A DNA stretch of 64,000 nucleotides from the NCBI GenBank assembly GCA_038873195.1, contig JAVZEV010000001.1:1330490-1394489 (forward strand), in the 5' to 3' direction. Source of the stretch: Candidatus Bathyarchaeia archaeon (GTDB lineage Archaea > Thermoproteota > Bathyarchaeia > Bathyarchaeales > Bathycorpusculaceae). Made by a program: the position numbers and the translations under genes. Positions 11,136-48,612 of this stretch are shown here, piece by piece (the stretch's first letter is position 1; every line of letters begins with the position of its first letter). Under the pieces are notes generated by a model. That model was not told the DNA's origin, did not search any database, and worked only from the letters and a program-made list of their open reading frames with translations.

Positions 11136-11387
11136 TCAACAAGTCTTGGATTTTGTAAGCTCAAGTTTCTGGCAGTGAGTCATCCTTTTGATTATTTTCT
11201 CTCTCCTCATTGCTTCAGACCGAGAATTGAACTCCTCAACATAGACAAGTTTCTTAGGCTTGTGCATCCGCGTGTATTTGGCACCTTTCCCATTAACATG
11301 AAGCCTCATCCGCAAATCCAAATCCTTCGTGTAACCAGTGTAGAAACAGCCACCATTACACTGAATAATATAAACGTAGTAAGGCAT
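11136..11387 (-). CDS. GIY-YIG domain endonuclease-like protein
   Basis: The 83 residues form one GIY-YIG domain of the small YhbQ/UPF0213 type. The family motif appears as YYVYIIQ near the start and CFYTGYT at residues 14-20. The catalytic-type Arg occurs in LRMRLHVNG, then YTRMHKPKKLVYVEEF and a conserved SRSEAMRREKIIKRM helix follow. Proteins of this size cleave or bind damaged or branched DNA, but physiological roles are poorly known. It lies just upstream of the alkyltransferase-like gene on the same strand, suggesting a small DNA-repair unit. A copy of the 33-bp TATA-containing repeat sits about 100 bases upstream. Confidence 0.88.
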   Translation of the reverse strand: MPYYVYIIQCNGGCFYTGYTKDLDLRMRLHVNGKGAKYTRMHKPKKLVYVEEFNSRSEAMRREKIIKRMTHCQKLELTKSKTC

Positions 11388-11484
11388 ACGCCAAACTCCA
11401 CACCAAATTTACACTTGCTCTCTCTCTCTCCATTCAGCACACAACCCCATATAACAATTACCTCAACACCCATTCAACCACAAT

Positions 11485-11517
11485 TTCAACCTATTTATAA
11501 GGGAGGGGCTATAGCTT
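11485..11517 (-). repeat. 33-bp TATA-containing repeat, copy 1
   Basis: This 33-base sequence is identical, in inverted orientation, to 43163-43195 next to the 16S rRNA gene. Read on the minus strand it contains a CCCCTCCC block, a TATA-like CTTATAAATAGG and a GGTTGAA element that recurs 12 bases later (11474-11479 and 11486-11491). On this strand it lies about 100 bases upstream of the GIY-YIG gene and could be its promoter. The leuS gene on the other strand has its own TATA-like CTTTAATACC near 11615. Confidence 0.75.
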
Positions 11518-11644
11518 TCCACGCACAGCAAAAGATTAATCCAACCACATACACACTATACAACGGTGCACAAAATGAGGGATAAAGTTCTCTGCTCGTG
11601 AAAACAAAACCTTTAATACCCCTCAAACCAAATCAGAAAGTTTT

Positions 11645-14554
11645 ATGGAATTTTTGAAAAAAACAGAAAAAAAATGGCAAAAACGCTGGCAACAAGCCAA
11701 AATCTTCGAAGCAAACCCAGACCCGAAAAAACCAAAATACTACATAACAGTGGCTTATCCATACCCAAACTCGCCACAACACATCGGACACGGAAGAACA
11801 TACACACTCGCAGACGTACACGCACGCTACATGCGCATGCGCGGCTACAACGTACTATTGCCAATGGCTTTCCACTACACGGGCACACCAGTCCTAGCCA
11901 TGGCCAAACGACTCGCAGAAAACGACAAAGACCTCATCAAAGACTTCACAACAGTCTACAAAATCCCAAAAGAAAAACTCAAAGAATTAACCGAACCAAT
12001 CACAATGGCACGCTACTTCCACCAAGAAATCAAAGCCGGCATGAAAGAAATAGGCTACTCAATCGACTGGCGACGCGAATTCACAACTGTAGACCCACAC
12101 TACAACCGCTTCATAGAATGGCAATTCCAAAAACTACGCAAAGGCGGATACATAAAACGTGGAAGCCACCCAGTAGGCTTTTGCCCAAAATGCGGAAACC
12201 CAGTCGGAATGCACGACACAAAAGGCGACGTAGAACCAGAAATCGGCGAATTCACAGTCATAAAATTCAGACAAAACAGCCTAGTCTTCCCAACCGCCAC
12301 ACTGCGTCCAGAAACAGTCTTCGGCGTAACAAACATTTGGCTAAACCCAAACGTAAAATACGTAAAAGCAAAAGTTAACGGCGAACAATGGGTAATCAGC
12401 AAAGAAAGCGCAGAGAAACTAACCTACCAAAAAAGAAAAGTCAAAATTTTAGAAACCTTCGAAGGAAAACAACTCATAGGCAAAACAGTTGAAAACCCAG
12501 CAACAAAAACTAAAATCCTAATCCTCCCAGCAGACTTCGTCGACCCAAAAAACGCAACAGGCGTGGTAATGTCTGTTCCAGGACACGCGCCATATGATTA
12601 TGTCGCTCTAGAAAACATCAAAAAAACACCGTCAAAACTGAAAGAATACGGAATAGCAACCGACGCCGTAAATGCAATCAAACCAATTTCCCTAATCCAA
12701 GTTCCAAACTACTCAGAAACTCCAGCAGCAGACGTAGTCAAAAAAATGCAAGTTCAAAACCAGACAGACCCGAAACTGGAAGACGCCACAAAAGAGGTCT
12801 ACCGTCACGAATTCCACAATGGCAAGATGAAACAAAACACAGGCAAATACCACGGCATGACGGTGGCAGAAGCAAAAGACAAAGTCAAACAAGACCTAAT
12901 CGCCGAAGACAAAGCCACAACAATGTACGAGTTACTAAACAGACCTGTTTTGTGCCGCTGCGGAACAGAATGCGTCGTAAAAATCTTGGAAGACCAATGG
13001 TTCATCGACTACGGAAAGCCAGAATGGAAAGCGTTAGCTCACAAAAACCTCGACATGATGGAAATATTGCCTGACGAAATGCGTTCAGAATACAACTACG
13101 TCATCGATTGGCTACACGAAAAAGCATGCGCAAGAAAATCCGGAATGGGCACAAGACTCCCATGGGACAAAGAATGGATAATCGAATCCCTATCAGACTC
13201 AACAATATACATGGCATACTACACAATCGTTAGACACATAAAAGAACACAAAATCAAAGCAGAACAACTAACGGAAAACGTCTTCGACTACATTTTCCTC
13301 GGAAAAGGCAACCCAACAACCATAGCTAAAAAAGCCAAAATAGACACAAAAACACTGAAAGCCATGCACAACGAATTCTCATACTTCTACCCACTCGACA
13401 GCAGACACTCAGCCCACGAACTAATCCCAAACCACCTAACCTTCATGATATTCAACCACACCGCCATATTCCCAGAAAAACACTGGCCACGCCAAATCGT
13501 AACCAACGGACACGTCCTAATGGAAGGCGCAAAAATGAGCAAATCCTTCGGAAACATAATCCCACTACGAGAAGGCTTAACCAAATTCGGCGCAGACCCA
13601 ATAAGACTCAGCGTTTTAGCAACCGCCGAACTACTGCAAGACGCTGACTTCAGCCCGTCAGTAGCCAAATCCATGCGCGAAAGACTAGAACGCCTATACA
13701 AATTCGTCGCCGAATTCACAAAGAAAAAACACACAAGAACTCCGCCCAAAGAGCTATCAGTCATAGACAAATGGATGCTCAGCCGACTACAAGAACACAT
13801 AAAAAAAGCAACTGAAGCCATGGACAAACTAGCAGTACGCAAAGCCATACACACAGCAATATACGAATTAGACCAAGACTTCCAATGGTACCAAAAACGA
13901 ACAACAAAACAAAAAGAAAACAACGCTAAAACGCATGTAATAAGCGAAGTCTTAGAAGCCCAAATCCGAATGCTAGCCCCAGTAGCACCTCACGTATGCG
14001 AAGAACTATGGGAAATGATAGGCAAAAGAAACTTCGTCTCAACAAGCTCTTGGCCCAAACCAGACAAAACAAAAATAGACATCATAGCCGAAGAAAACGA
14101 AACCCTAATCATGAACATACTCGAAGACACATCAAACATAATAAAAGCCACAAAAATAAAGCCCAAAAAAATATGCTACTACACAGCTGCACCATGGAAA
14201 TGGAAAGTCTACACAAAAGCTCTCGAAAAAGCCGTCTCAGGCAGAGTCCAGCAGAAAGACTTAATGAAAGAACTAATGGCAGATTCTACTCTAAGAGCGA
14301 TGGCAGAAAAAGTAGCAAAATTCACCAATCAAATCATCGAAGAAATCAACCACATGCCAGAAGAAAGAAAGAAAAAACTAACCCAAATCGGAACCCTAAA
14401 CGAATACAACATACTAAAAGAAGCAGAAAACTTCCTTACAAAAGAACTCCACTCCAAAATACACATCTACAACGAAGAAAACACAAACCGCTACGACCCA
14501 AAAAACAAAGCACAACAAGCAAAACCACACCGCCCAGCAATATACATAGAATAA
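11645..14554 (+). CDS. leuS: Leucyl-tRNA synthetase, archaeal type
   Basis: The 969-residue enzyme attaches leucine to tRNA-Leu and hydrolyses mischarged products in its CP1 domain. The class I HIGH motif is at residues 46-49 (PQHIGHGRTYT) and the KMSKS motif near residue 632 (GAKMSKSFGN). Length and the archaeal/eukaryotic-type C-terminal extension are normal. A TATA-like CTTTAATACC about 30 bases before the ATG points to a leaderless message. Codon use is unusual: third positions are overwhelmingly A or C, opposite to the G/T-ending codons of alaS upstream, and the coding strand is strongly A+C rich. Confidence 0.97.
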   Translation: MEFLKKTEKKWQKRWQQAKIFEANPDPKKPKYYITVAYPYPNSPQHIGHGRTYTLADVHARYMRMRGYNVLLPMAFHYTGTPVLAMAKRLAENDKDLIKDFTTVYKIPKEKLKELTEPITMARYFHQEIKAGMKEIGYSIDWRREFTTVDPHYNRFIEWQFQKLRKGGYIKRGSHPVGFCPKCGNPVGMHDTKGDVEPEIGEFTVIKFRQNSLVFPTATLRPETVFGVTNIWLNPNVKYVKAKVNGEQWVISKESAEKLTYQKRKVKILETFEGKQLIGKTVENPATKTKILILPADFVDPKNATGVVMSVPGHAPYDYVALENIKKTPSKLKEYGIATDAVNAIKPISLIQVPNYSETPAADVVKKMQVQNQTDPKLEDATKEVYRHEFHNGKMKQNTGKYHGMTVAEAKDKVKQDLIAEDKATTMYELLNRPVLCRCGTECVVKILEDQWFIDYGKPEWKALAHKNLDMMEILPDEMRSEYNYVIDWLHEKACARKSGMGTRLPWDKEWIIESLSDSTIYMAYYTIVRHIKEHKIKAEQLTENVFDYIFLGKGNPTTIAKKAKIDTKTLKAMHNEFSYFYPLDSRHSAHELIPNHLTFMIFNHTAIFPEKHWPRQIVTNGHVLMEGAKMSKSFGNIIPLREGLTKFGADPIRLSVLATAELLQDADFSPSVAKSMRERLERLYKFVAEFTKKKHTRTPPKELSVIDKWMLSRLQEHIKKATEAMDKLAVRKAIHTAIYELDQDFQWYQKRTTKQKENNAKTHVISEVLEAQIRMLAPVAPHVCEELWEMIGKRNFVSTSSWPKPDKTKIDIIAEENETLIMNILEDTSNIIKATKIKPKKICYYTAAPWKWKVYTKALEKAVSGRVQQKDLMKELMADSTLRAMAEKVAKFTNQIIEEINHMPEERKKKLTQIGTLNEYNILKEAENFLTKELHSKIHIYNEENTNRYDPKNKAQQAKPHRPAIYIE

Positions 14555-34747: not shown

Positions 34748-35665
34748 GTGAAGATAGTAACCTACAGAGACTTAACATCAAAAGACGGGCTCTTGCCCCT
34801 GATGGACCAAGCCTTTCGCTGGCCATTCAACCATAGAACATTTGAAGATTTCATCAAAAGCGACCCAAGGTCGAGAGACGGTCCCGTCGGTTTCTGCGCA
34901 GTGGAAAATGATTTGCCGATTGGTTTCGTTGGAGTCATGCACTTGTCTACTCGAACGATAGATGGAAGCGTAGAGCGTGTTGGCGGAATCTATGGAGTCG
35001 CCACATTGCCAAGTCATGTGCGGAAAGGAGTTTCCACGGCGTTAATGAAAAGAGCCCATGAGTATTTTGCCGAGAAAGGTTTCCGCTTTTCTTTTTTAAC
35101 AACAAGCCGAACTCTCATAGCACACGCGTTTTACGAAAAACTCGGCTACTTTGACGTTACCCAATATCTAAGCGCCTACAAGGTAGTTACACATAAAAAA
35201 GCTGAACTCTCTACAAAGAAAGAAACTGTAAAGTTTGATTTCGACAAAATCTTAAAAATATACAATGAATTTTCACGGGACAAAACTGGCTTTGTAATTC
35301 GCGACAAAGAACATTTGAAAATGCTCAAGAAAGGAGAAAGAATAACCGCTAAACAATGCATGTTCAGCGAAAAAGGATACGCCATATTCAGAAAAGACCG
35401 AGAAGGGGTTTGGATTAGAGAGCTTATTGCATTGACCGCGAAGGATATGGAAAGGTTAGTTAGCAGAATTGAACAGCAAGCCAGAGACATAGTCTACGAT
35501 AGAATTGTTCTAAACAACGCTTTACTTCAGTTTTACGAATCTCGCGGCTACATGATCCGCAGAGAAAGCCACTCTGTTCTCATGGCGAAACCTCTAACAG
35601 CGAATGCTTCAATAAAACAAGCATACGGCGACAAATTCTTTATGACATCTCTGGACTGGTTCTAA
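34748..35665 (+). CDS. Eis-like GNAT acetyltransferase
   Basis: The 305-residue protein has an N-terminal GNAT domain with GGIYGVATLPSHVRKGVSTALMKRA (acetyl-CoA loop at residues about 83-98) and AHAFYEKLGYFDV. A second, degenerate GNAT-like half follows (residues 155-290), the layout of Eis-type N-acetyltransferases. The substrate is unknown. The start is GTG at 34748, preceded by AAGGAGA. A degenerate copy of the 33-bp repeat lies 28 bases after its stop. Confidence 0.8.
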   Translation: MKIVTYRDLTSKDGLLPLMDQAFRWPFNHRTFEDFIKSDPRSRDGPVGFCAVENDLPIGFVGVMHLSTRTIDGSVERVGGIYGVATLPSHVRKGVSTALMKRAHEYFAEKGFRFSFLTTSRTLIAHAFYEKLGYFDVTQYLSAYKVVTHKKAELSTKKETVKFDFDKILKIYNEFSRDKTGFVIRDKEHLKMLKKGERITAKQCMFSEKGYAIFRKDREGVWIRELIALTAKDMERLVSRIEQQARDIVYDRIVLNNALLQFYESRGYMIRRESHSVLMAKPLTANASIKQAYGDKFFMTSLDWF

Positions 35666-35692
35666 AAAGTATACAATGAATTCTCAACCTGA

Positions 35693-35719
35693 TTCAACCT
35701 ATATATAAGTGAGGGGATA
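35693..35719 (-). repeat. Degenerate copy 3 of the TATA-containing repeat
   Basis: 24 of the first 27 positions agree with the perfect 33-bp copies at 11485 and 43163. Read on the minus strand it retains CCCCTC, CTTATATATAGG and GGTTGAA, and a second GGTTGA follows 10 bases later. It lies in the spacer between two convergent genes, where neither gene would need a promoter, so a small RNA or a dispersed element are options. Confidence 0.55.
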
Positions 35720-35758
35720 ACTCTGCAGAGAGCGAAATTTCACAGAAACATTCTCAGT

Positions 35759-36256
35759 CTACAGTTGGATTATCTTCGCTTCACGCTTCATCGTGTCAAG
35801 CAAAGCAATCGTTGATTTCCCAGTCAAATACCCACACAACTCTCCGGGATTAACAACCAACGTTTTGCCCTTCCTATAAACTCCAGCCGTATGAGAATGC
35901 CCATGAACCACAACATCAAAACTTTCACTATCAATCAAAGCCCTCAACAACTCTTCCTCAGTTCCATGCAACAACGCAATTTTTGCATCATCAACAACAA
36001 TCATGGCAAAGCTTCCACGAATTTCAAGAGCAGAGTTTTCGCTGAACCTTTTCTTCAAAAGCTCGCGGTCGCCATCATTGTTGCCAAAAACCCCTATCAT
36101 TTTTGCCTTTAACTTTTTGAATTTCGGAATCACGAACGGCGCAACATAGTCCCCAGCGTGAAGAGCAAGTTCAACTTTTTCCTCGTTAAATCTTTCTATG
36201 GCTTTCTCAACTAAAGGCAAACGGTCATGTGTGTCTGAAATTATGCCTATTAACAT
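35759..36256 (-). CDS. YfcE/MJ0936-type metallophosphoesterase
   Basis: The 165 residues show the calcineurin-like metal site: GIISDTHDRLP at residues 3-13, ALHAGDYV near 34, FGNNDGDRELL near 58, and VVHGHSHTAGVYRKG near 116 with NPGELCG near 133. Small YfcE-like enzymes hydrolyse phosphodiesters; physiological substrates are mostly unknown. The ATG at 36256 is the only reasonable start. It is convergent with the Eis-like acetyltransferase gene. Confidence 0.9.
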   Translation of the reverse strand: MLIGIISDTHDRLPLVEKAIERFNEEKVELALHAGDYVAPFVIPKFKKLKAKMIGVFGNNDGDRELLKKRFSENSALEIRGSFAMIVVDDAKIALLHGTEEELLRALIDSESFDVVVHGHSHTAGVYRKGKTLVVNPGELCGYLTGKSTIALLDTMKREAKIIQL

Positions 36257-41557: not shown

Positions 41558-43052
<1,495 letters not shown>

Positions 43053-43133: not shown

Positions 43134-43162
43134 ACTAGTTAGTGTGTTTTTGTGCTGTGCGG

Positions 43163-43195
43163 AAGCTATAGCCCCTCCCTTATAAATAGGTTGAA
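43163..43195 (+). repeat. 33-bp TATA-containing repeat, copy 2
   Basis: Identical over 33 bases to the minus strand of 11485-11517. It carries GCCCCTCCC, CTTATAAATAGG and GGTTGAA, with a GGTTAG 12 bases later. It begins 29 bases beyond the 16S processing stem. Read as a promoter it would fire rightwards from about 43212 into the McrC 3' end, where no plus-strand gene is evident. Confidence 0.75.
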
Positions 43196-43300
43196 GTGGT
43201 GGTTAGAACTTGCTTTTGGATGATTTGTTTGTCTTCTTGCAATGTACCCCGCTCTTGATTATCGTTTGTTTTTAAACTCTCAATCATTTATTATGAAGGT

Positions 43301-46560: not shown

Positions 46561-48612
46561 TCATTCCACCAAAATTCTACCCTTACCATAAGGAATAAAC
46601 TCTCTAATCGCTTCAACAGAAGCCTCCGCAACCATCTCCCGATATTCCTTCGGCAATTTCGCAGCCAAACTCCTCAAAATCCGCCTAAACAACTCTTTAC
46701 CCGCCATGTCTCCAGGCACAACAACAACATACGCGTCACTCTTCGCCTTAACAGCATCCACTGGACCACCGCCGACGCGAATCCGTCCTTCTTCTTCATT
46801 CACAGCAACACCAACGCCTACCCTAAGCGGAACATTACGCATCCAATTTCTCTCACCACGAACAACAAAACCCCCACGAGGCACACTCTCACCAGAAGAC
46901 CCACCCTTACTCAACTGCGAAGGCTTAACCCAATAAACATCAACCACACCAAAACCCTCACGCCAACCACGCGAAAAAGCAGCAGCAAACTCCCCAGCCT
47001 CCCGCAAAGTCTGCTCACCCGGCACTTTACCCTCAGTCTTAACAACAACAAACGGCGCACCAACAACATCAGCATGAAAAACCACATCCTCCGCCTCCAC
47101 ATACTTCTTAACCAAAACCTCATTACTCACCGCGTCCTTACCCGCAACAACCAAAAAACCATCCGAAGAAACAAACCACCTAAACTTCTCAAACCACTCC
47201 CTATGCTTAACTTTACGCCTAACCATATCCTCCAAAACCTCAGCCGGCCTCGCACCCTCGAACATCTCAGCCTCCCCAATCTTAGCCTCAACCTCCACCA
47301 ACTTCTTACGCGTATCCTCCAAAGCCGCCCTAGCACCTTCCAACTTCTGCCTAGCACGCTTACTCCTCTCAAAAAACCTCGCAGCATTCCCAAACACGCT
47401 ACTACACAAATCCAAATCAAACCGCAAACCATCCACACAAACCCACAACACCATATTTTTAGCATCAAAAGACTCAAAAAACAACCAAGGACTAACCCCA
47501 GAACGCTTCTCAGCCAAAGCCTGCGCAACAATCTCATCCCACTCTTTTCCACCCTTTTTAGCAGCCAAAAACCACTCCATTAAACTCTGAAGCTCACCAC
47601 TATGCGCATAAATCAAATCGCCAACACGCCTATCCCTCTCAGCCTTACCCTCACCCTCAACAATCATCTCCTCCTGACCAGCAACAACACGCCTAAGCCT
47701 CTCAGCCTCACGACGCAAAACCTCCACATCAACACCAGCCGCAGCCTTCTCCACCGCCGCAACTCTAACATAAAACTCATCCAAAGCCTCATTAAAACTC
47801 CCATAAGACTCAAACCTAAAACTTTCATAACGCCTAAGCTTAACCGGCACAACATCCACCAACCCGCCTCCCTCATCCAAAACAACCAAAGGCTCAAGCT
47901 TACCATCCAAAACCTGAGAAAGCATCTCATGCAACAAATCAAAAATCAAGCTAACTTCAGCATCGCCAAGAACATTACATGGCTTGGTCTTGTCTATTCC
48001 CGCTCTTAACAAAACTTCTTCCGCATAAAGCCCACCAATGCTTAAAAGACGCGTGATTGCCCTAACAACCTCAACATCACCAAACTTCGCAAGCGCATCT
48101 CTAAATTCCGCTTTACTCACCCTAAACGGGTTCTTTCCACCCGAAGGCGCAAAACGAAAAACCCCACCCCGAACAACATCACGGTCCCGCATACGCTTAT
48201 AACTCAAAGCATGCAAAATCACACCCTTCTCATCAACCAAAACAACGTTACCATCACCAAAAACCTCCAAAACAAGCCGCAACCCACCAGCCTTCGACTT
48301 AAACGAAAAAACCACAACCCTCTCAAACTCATACTGCTCAACACCAATAAGCCAACTGTTCCGCAAATACTTCCTCAAAGCCATACAAAAAGCAGGCGGC
48401 ACCACAGGCTTCTCCAAAACATAAGAAGTCAAATGCAACCGCTTACCAGCCTCCAAAACCAACCGAAACGCAGGCTTATCAGGCTTATGCAATTTAAAAA
48501 TCAAAGTTTTCTCATCTAACTGGTAAACATTGTTAACACGAGAACCCAAAATAGCCTCTCTTAACTCTCGAACCACCGCCGCCACATCAAAACTCGTAAA
48601 CTCCCGCTTCAC
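46561..48612 (-). CDS. rqcH: RqcH/NEMF ribosome quality control factor
   Basis: The protein of about 683 residues has NFACT-N (TSFDVAAVVRELREAILGSR at the start), a helix-hairpin and coiled coil (residues about 330-450) and an NFACT-R domain with KHREWFEKFRWFVSSDGFLV and AHADVVGAPFVVVK-like sequence. It binds stalled 50S-peptidyl-tRNA complexes and adds or recruits C-terminal tails. A longer frame starts at 48684, but a TATA-like CTATTTATAG near 48655 lies inside it. GGAGTGAT precedes clustered GTG/TTG codons at 48612-48621, so the true start is among them. Codons end mostly in G or T. Confidence 0.9.
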   Translation of the reverse strand: MKREFTSFDVAAVVRELREAILGSRVNNVYQLDEKTLIFKLHKPDKPAFRLVLEAGKRLHLTSYVLEKPVVPPAFCMALRKYLRNSWLIGVEQYEFERVVVFSFKSKAGGLRLVLEVFGDGNVVLVDEKGVILHALSYKRMRDRDVVRGGVFRFAPSGGKNPFRVSKAEFRDALAKFGDVEVVRAITRLLSIGGLYAEEVLLRAGIDKTKPCNVLGDAEVSLIFDLLHEMLSQVLDGKLEPLVVLDEGGGLVDVVPVKLRRYESFRFESYGSFNEALDEFYVRVAAVEKAAAGVDVEVLRREAERLRRVVAGQEEMIVEGEGKAERDRRVGDLIYAHSGELQSLMEWFLAAKKGGKEWDEIVAQALAEKRSGVSPWLFFESFDAKNMVLWVCVDGLRFDLDLCSSVFGNAARFFERSKRARQKLEGARAALEDTRKKLVEVEAKIGEAEMFEGARPAEVLEDMVRRKVKHREWFEKFRWFVSSDGFLVVAGKDAVSNEVLVKKYVEAEDVVFHADVVGAPFVVVKTEGKVPGEQTLREAGEFAAAFSRGWREGFGVVDVYWVKPSQLSKGGSSGESVPRGGFVVRGERNWMRNVPLRVGVGVAVNEEEGRIRVGGGPVDAVKAKSDAYVVVVPGDMAGKELFRRILRSLAAKLPKEYREMVAEASVEAIREFIPYGKGRILVE

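Follow-up and report, generated by a model that had tools for sequence, protein, structure and literature searches.

The stretch of DNA analysed here, referred to as the window, spans 64,000 nucleotides of a Candidatus Bathyarchaeia archaeon genome and contains three copies of a short sequence element. Copy 1 (11469..11534, + strand) is flanked on its left by a GIY-YIG domain gene (11136..11387, - strand; PF01541, E 7e-19) and on its right by the leucyl-tRNA synthetase (LeuRS) gene (11645..14554, + strand; CG3 +0.60, AT3 +0.81). Copy 2 (43145..43210, - strand) is located in the 3' flank of the 16S rRNA gene (41558..43052, + strand; RF01959, 1506.8 bits), and copy 3 (35689..35739, + strand) lies between two convergent genes, encoding a GNAT acetyltransferase on its left (34748..35665, + strand; PF00583) and a calcineurin-like phosphoesterase on its right (35759..36256, - strand; PF12850; CG3 +0.35 on the + strand). 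The 16S rRNA gene is isolated, with neither a 23S nor a tRNA gene found within the 64-kb window.

The GIY-YIG, 16S rRNA and convergent-gene contexts are those given in the original prediction, and the sequence relationships it reported were reproduced as well: 11485-11517 (+) is identical to 43163-43195 (-) over 33 bases, the match extending to 42 nt at 95%, and a third, degenerate copy at 35693-35719 matches in 24 of 27 bases. That this similarity exceeds chance was confirmed with a 19-bp consensus, which matched the window at exactly three places when up to three mismatches were allowed, vs 0.03 expected in shuffles. Scores with a 67-position profile were 35-60 bits for the three copies (copy 1, match at 11472-11533, 51.6 bits; copy 3, 34.8 bits; copy 2, 59.6 bits, the best copy of the genome), and the next best match in the window reached 6.5 bits.

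The element comprises ~60 bp with a 24-bp core, TTCAACCTATWTATAAGGGRGGGG. Its parts, given for the strand carrying TTCAACC...GGGAGGGG, follow each other in the order AAC(C) at -8, TTCAACC, TATWTATAA, a purine run of 5-9 nt (all G, or G with a single A), CTATA and a T-free CGCAGAGCACAAAA. In copy 1 the upstream AACC half-site occupies 11476..11479 (+ strand; A at -8/-7 in 19/23, 37/42 and 37/44 copies), the core, consisting of the BRE-like TTCAACC, the TATA sequence TATTTATAA and GGGAGGGG, occupies 11485..11508 (+ strand; seven identical genomic copies), and a TATA-like -10 element with a T-free predicted initiation region is assigned to 11510..11529 (+ strand; profile columns 41-60); the core of copy 2 is at 43172-43195. 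Each copy had been described as carrying two iterons, which holds only in part: an AAC(C) ~12 bp upstream of the AACC in TTCAACC is common, though not strictly kept. If the CA is taken as the start and distances are counted from it, the spacing is that of an archaeal promoter, with AA (BRE) at -33/-34, the TATA centre ~26 bp and the TATA-like element ~10 bp before the T-free CA start region. Judged by its sequence, the element reads as a complete archaeal core promoter that would be aimed at the GGGAGGGG side.

We then determined how widespread the element is. Searching the 1.63-Mb genome of the window (G000) with the 24-mer yielded 23 copies with at most three mismatches, seven of them identical, and none with the reversed control. 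A profile built from 68 aligned copies identified a discrete population of 48 hits with at least 28 bits, the next hit having 15 bits, so that ~48 copies are dispersed throughout the genome; one of the two explanations originally offered, a dispersed element, was thus correct. The motif search that had been proposed for related genomes also found copies there: profile counts were ~48-51 in G000, similar in G001 of the same genus, ~40 in G005 of another genus, 30 in G025, 20 in G018 and 17 in G002, and matches occurred in 17 of 61 relatives, all inside the family. Genera further removed carry TATA-G-run-CTATA versions of their own. Elsewhere, a Bathyarchaeota MAG is the one named source of an exact match. 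G000 and G001 share many orthologous sites, and a few are also present in another genus. Position and strand are random, with neither regular spacing nor strand bias, and we discarded an architectural or origin-like regular array. A viral origin was likewise rejected, as the matching IMG/VR contigs look chromosomal (ABC-ATPase, PKD, methyltransferase and HAD genes); a second pattern scan for viral matches gave none. Our literature search found no publication on such an element.

The copies are generally not inside genes. Neither of the outcomes that had been named as speaking against the original prediction, copies within genes and their absence from relatives, was thus observed. The one exception among the copies examined, L055 4051, overlaps the start of a reading frame (L055 4035-4337, G000:C1:369350; L237 5694(-)) in both genomes, where it can be read in frame as protein (MTEPPLQPINKGGG... 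/ MTEPQVQSIYKGGL...). The sites were studied in the stretches of sequence that surround them; genes were predicted with a home-made caller, and 30 neighbours and flanking genes were checked with Pfam. By these predictions, 18 of 47 copies lie in convergent and 11 in divergent gaps, nine lie between two + genes and nine between two - genes, and several sit after tRNA-Thr, tRNA-Cys and 16S genes. The neighbours are ordinary genes that do not form a functional regulon, and a single regulon was dismissed. A tRNA or small-RNA gene was also rejected, as no tRNA lies at the copies, the sole Rfam match of the window is the 16S rRNA, and the downstream sequence is not conserved.

These contexts bear on two explanations of the element. 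The convergent copies, those behind tRNA and rRNA genes and the minus-strand T-run beside the stop codon of right-hand genes would suit a boundary or transcription terminator, which we nevertheless consider scarcely probable, as the 11 divergent gaps, e.g. that before LeuRS, hold nothing to terminate, and as neither the strand asymmetry nor the crossovers described below would be explained. Alternatively, the copies might be strong archaeal core promoters belonging to a single regulon, which drive genes in some places and antisense or intergenic RNA in others and co-evolve with an activator. BRE, TATA, -10 element and initiation region are correctly spaced towards the G-run, and the element is the only visible promoter before a few genes, among them those for the PHP protein L062 and the AN1 zinc-finger protein L051. 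However, a consistent orientation to a transcribed gene is absent, 27 of 47 copies facing the 3' end of the right-hand gene, and DNA downstream of the element is no more conserved than neutral flank and contains no conserved RNA. LeuRS keeps its own promoter, AACCTTTAATAC (11608..11619, + strand; motif score 8.3), 30 bp before the start codon, conserved in sequence in other genera, indicating that copy 1 is not the LeuRS core promoter. Moreover, whereas layout and spacing fit known archaeal core promoters (BRE-TATA-PPE-Inr), the element differs from them in two ways: its copies hardly vary over 24 bp, a stretch that includes the G-run separating TATA from -10, which basal promoters do not need, and its placement is independent of genes. 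An extra TFB paralogue was not found either, the genome having two TFB genes, as most relatives do. We therefore regard the regulon reading as unlikely, and the regulated promoter for small RNAs shared by the copies, the second explanation originally offered, was not established, given the random orientation to genes and the lack of a regulon and of a conserved downstream RNA. The promoter-like sequence as such may still be genuine, as promoters draw recombination in some eukaryotes.

The most surprising property of the sites, which the original prediction did not include, is a strand-composition asymmetry. Intergenic DNA around the copies has a C-G skew of +0.34 on the element's + strand vs 0.00 in other gaps. 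To the right, A and C prevail at third codon positions of the element's + strand, where CG3 falls from ~+0.6 in the first kb to +0.1 at 3-4 kb. On the left CG3 is +0.4 in the first 250 bp, passes zero near -0.8 kb and amounts to -0.25 at a distance of 2-5 kb. Both sides are near zero past ~8 kb, where sites are few, and one bin, 6-8 kb to the right, is negative. The sign hence changes ~0.5-1 kb left of the element and not at the element. The first right-hand gene has a CG3 above 0.3 in 33 of 42 cases in G000 and in 35 of 43 in G001, and on the right side in G005 the value exceeds 0.3 in 13 of 22 cases and is below -0.3 in none. Mean CG3 is 0.38 for right-hand genes on the + strand, 0.50 for those on the - strand and 0.04 for left-hand genes. 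The skew is set by the orientation of the element, not by that of the gene.

This pattern speaks further against the element acting as a promoter. The sign is opposite to the known transcription bias, genes running against the presumed transcript are more skewed, and the left side is affected too, making transcription from the element a poor cause. The LeuRS gene offered a comparison across 30 genomes: CG3 of its first kb is 0.48 in five genomes with an upstream element or relic vs 0.10 in 25 without (p 0.001), the relic of G012 and the variant of G003 having been recognised by eye. Third-position divergence is not raised near elements (0.159 on the right vs 0.17-0.18 elsewhere). Strongly skewed genes without an element exist (6 of 57). 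One of them, at 46561-48585 (- strand) in the window, has a CG3 of +0.85 and an AT3 of +0.75 on the + strand and no adjoining element; its G005 orthologue lies left of an element and is unskewed. A search by synteny for traces of a former element beside this gene gave only the G005 element on the other side of the orthologue.

Comparison of 43 orthologous pairs (G000/G001) revealed that the elements are constrained and exchange sequence. Fixed core positions are ~97-98% identical vs 86-91% in the adjacent flanks. At the two W positions of the core, A and T are switched in 21 of 86 cases (24%) vs 61 of 3365 flank positions (1.8%; p 1e-16), i.e. 13-fold faster, and such switches also occur in 6 of 34 cases where both flanks are intact. 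The G-runs change as a group between genomes, in length and composition jointly. As the flanks are still orthologous, these changes imply that the copies trade sequence or that all of them track a changed binding factor, the latter being what one regulon with a co-evolving activator would predict.

Exchange is accompanied by rearrangement. Synteny between G000 and G001 is broken at 24 of 38 element gaps (63%) vs 24 of 129 others (19%; p 7e-7), although G001, like G005, is a draft assembly in which breakpoints at repeats may partly be misjoins, the repeats, however, being shorter than the reads. Among convergent gaps alone, 14 of 19 with an element are broken vs 4 of 14 without. Two inversions between the genomes, one of 9.4 kb (645790 to 655156) and one of ~372 kb (C1:896264 to C1:1268469), have both their junctions inside elements with clean exchange of the flanks; in these inversions and in one further translocation the flanks are exchanged reciprocally inside the core. 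The sites thus show the excess exchange and rearrangement of a recombination hotspot of the Chi or break type, but not the higher mutation rate that would be expected in its exposed flank. A promoter regulon would leave crossovers inside the element unexplained. Other changes are one-sided, affecting the left flank at 13 sites and the right flank at three (p 0.02; classified by hand after the fact): the right flank is retained and the left one replaced or split by 0.5-2 kb. At copy 1, for instance, G001 has a 1-kb insertion immediately left of the element. Some one-sided inserts are gene-sized and of unrelated DNA, e.g. at LeuRS in G001 and at L058, and lack a second element copy. A mobile element was rejected, the inserts beside elements being unrelated ordinary genes.

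If a site-specific recombinase of the tyrosine or serine type used the element to reshuffle the chromosome and to insert gene cassettes on one side, crossovers confined to the core and one-sided inserts of this kind would result. Yet in the aligned copies the core is not a pair of inverted half-sites around a spacer, most orthologous sites are unshuffled, the inserts come without a second copy and the skew would have no explanation, so that we deem a recombinase target very improbable. Rather improbable, too, is a selfish dispersed repeat that spread long ago and now merely allows functionless homologous recombination between its copies. As in REP/BIME, BOX, ERIC and MITE families, short copies occur by the dozen in intergenic DNA, frequently between convergent genes and sometimes in tandem, with genus-specific versions, and rearrangement breakpoints coincide with them. 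Unlike these families, the element shows neither a palindrome nor terminal inverted repeats on inspection of the 68 aligned copies, and its orthologous sites are old, conserved and constrained. Three sites were examined among those of G000 that lack a counterpart in G001; they comprise one decayed copy, one replaced gap and one rearranged site, i.e. no clean empty site, and a passive repeat would not yield a kb-scale strand bias locked to its orientation. Two metagenome contigs catalogued as viral carry tandem arrays of ~80-bp units in the same location, with three units in L237 (2299-2480) and two in L236 (2711-2810); these arrays evidently grow or shrink through recombination at the core.

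Taken together, it is almost certain that the genome contains ~48 dispersed, oriented, intergenic elements of ~60 bp that swap sequence and flanks, each located at the peak of an orientation-bound strand asymmetry. As to their function, we cautiously favour a polar cis-acting site at which replication forks or DNA ends stop or are processed and are repaired on other copies. When the + strand loses G and T, the - strand loses C and A, which is the mark of an exposed or lagging-template strand; this mark is on the - strand right of the element and on the + strand far left of it. The element would be bound by a putative protein or, via its promoter-like sequence, by the basal transcription machinery. 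On the right of the element the lower strand would be the lagging template or an exposed 3' single strand, and beyond ~1.5 kb to its left the upper strand would be the lagging template or an exposed single strand, so that over time the strands would diverge into a G/T-rich and an A/C-rich one. Stalled forks or ends with the element at their tip might be repaired using other copies, giving rise to converted W positions, inversions with a crossover inside the element, and sites with a kept right and a new left flank. The 13:3 polarity would result if the right-hand end, its 3' strand ending in the element, invaded other copies and copied their left flank.

This arrangement fits resected strands at a double-strand break and, equally, forks converging on a site. 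The side-specific signs are those expected for converging forks, yet they are local and displaced by ~0.5-1 kb to the left. As divergence is not raised, a fixed fork direction or some mild process is more likely than a break that is strongly mutagenic; a fixed fork direction, in turn, should extend past ~4 kb, and the short reach speaks against it. The displaced zero point and the strongly skewed genes that have no element also count against the favoured reading.

Several known systems share parts of this behaviour. Chi is an orientation-dependent hotspot of 8 bp with ~1000 copies in E. coli that works on RecBCD, and its effect is graded over kb to one side, the exposed strand being G/T-rich; the present element, in contrast, has 24-60 bp and ~50 copies and is intergenic and archaeal. 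Human double-strand-break hotspots (PRDM9/SPO11) have strand asymmetries of opposite sign on their two sides over +/-2 kb, where the exposed strand loses C and A, and central rearrangements (PMC7615360). The sign, the affected bases (C and A) and the kb scale of this single-strand signature (PMC7615360) agree with those at the element, but here the organism is an archaeon without meiosis, the asymmetry is one-sided in strength, its zero point is displaced to the left and the mutation rate is not raised. The polar replication fork barriers Tus-Ter and RTP act at sites of 21-30 bp that are non-palindromic, oriented and bound by a protein. Such sites should determine fork direction and, with it, strand composition, and instability occurs at the arrested forks (PMC10331603). 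The 24-bp core, too, is a short, asymmetric, strongly conserved and oriented site; however, Tus-Ter/RTP is a terminus trap, whereas the element occurs in ~50 copies at random places and on random strands, is promoter-like and has a local skew (~4 kb).

With somewhat greater caution, we suggest that ~50 oriented sites in Bathyarchaeia may set the place and direction at which forks or recombination intermediates are arrested, constituting a dispersed polar system on a promoter-like basis that would be unlike any described in archaea. Among archaea we know of no sequence element by which local strand asymmetry and chromosome breakpoints are set throughout the genome. If this suggestion is true, positions of fork arrest or recombination start could be read from a DNA motif in an uncultured lineage, and the same motif would account for inversions and gene insertions. 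The 24-mer is a concrete target for finding the binding protein, and the element offers a natural comparison of promoters, fork barriers and recombination hotspots.

Finally, the sequence between copy 1 and the LeuRS gene holds a feature of its own. The LeuRS leader (window 11566-11640; GGTGCACAAAATGAGGGATAAAGTTCTC...), which may encode a short peptide, MRDKVLCS, is conserved in at least seven genera, and several of these share two TTTAAT promoters with it; it is perhaps a leader RNA or an attenuator.
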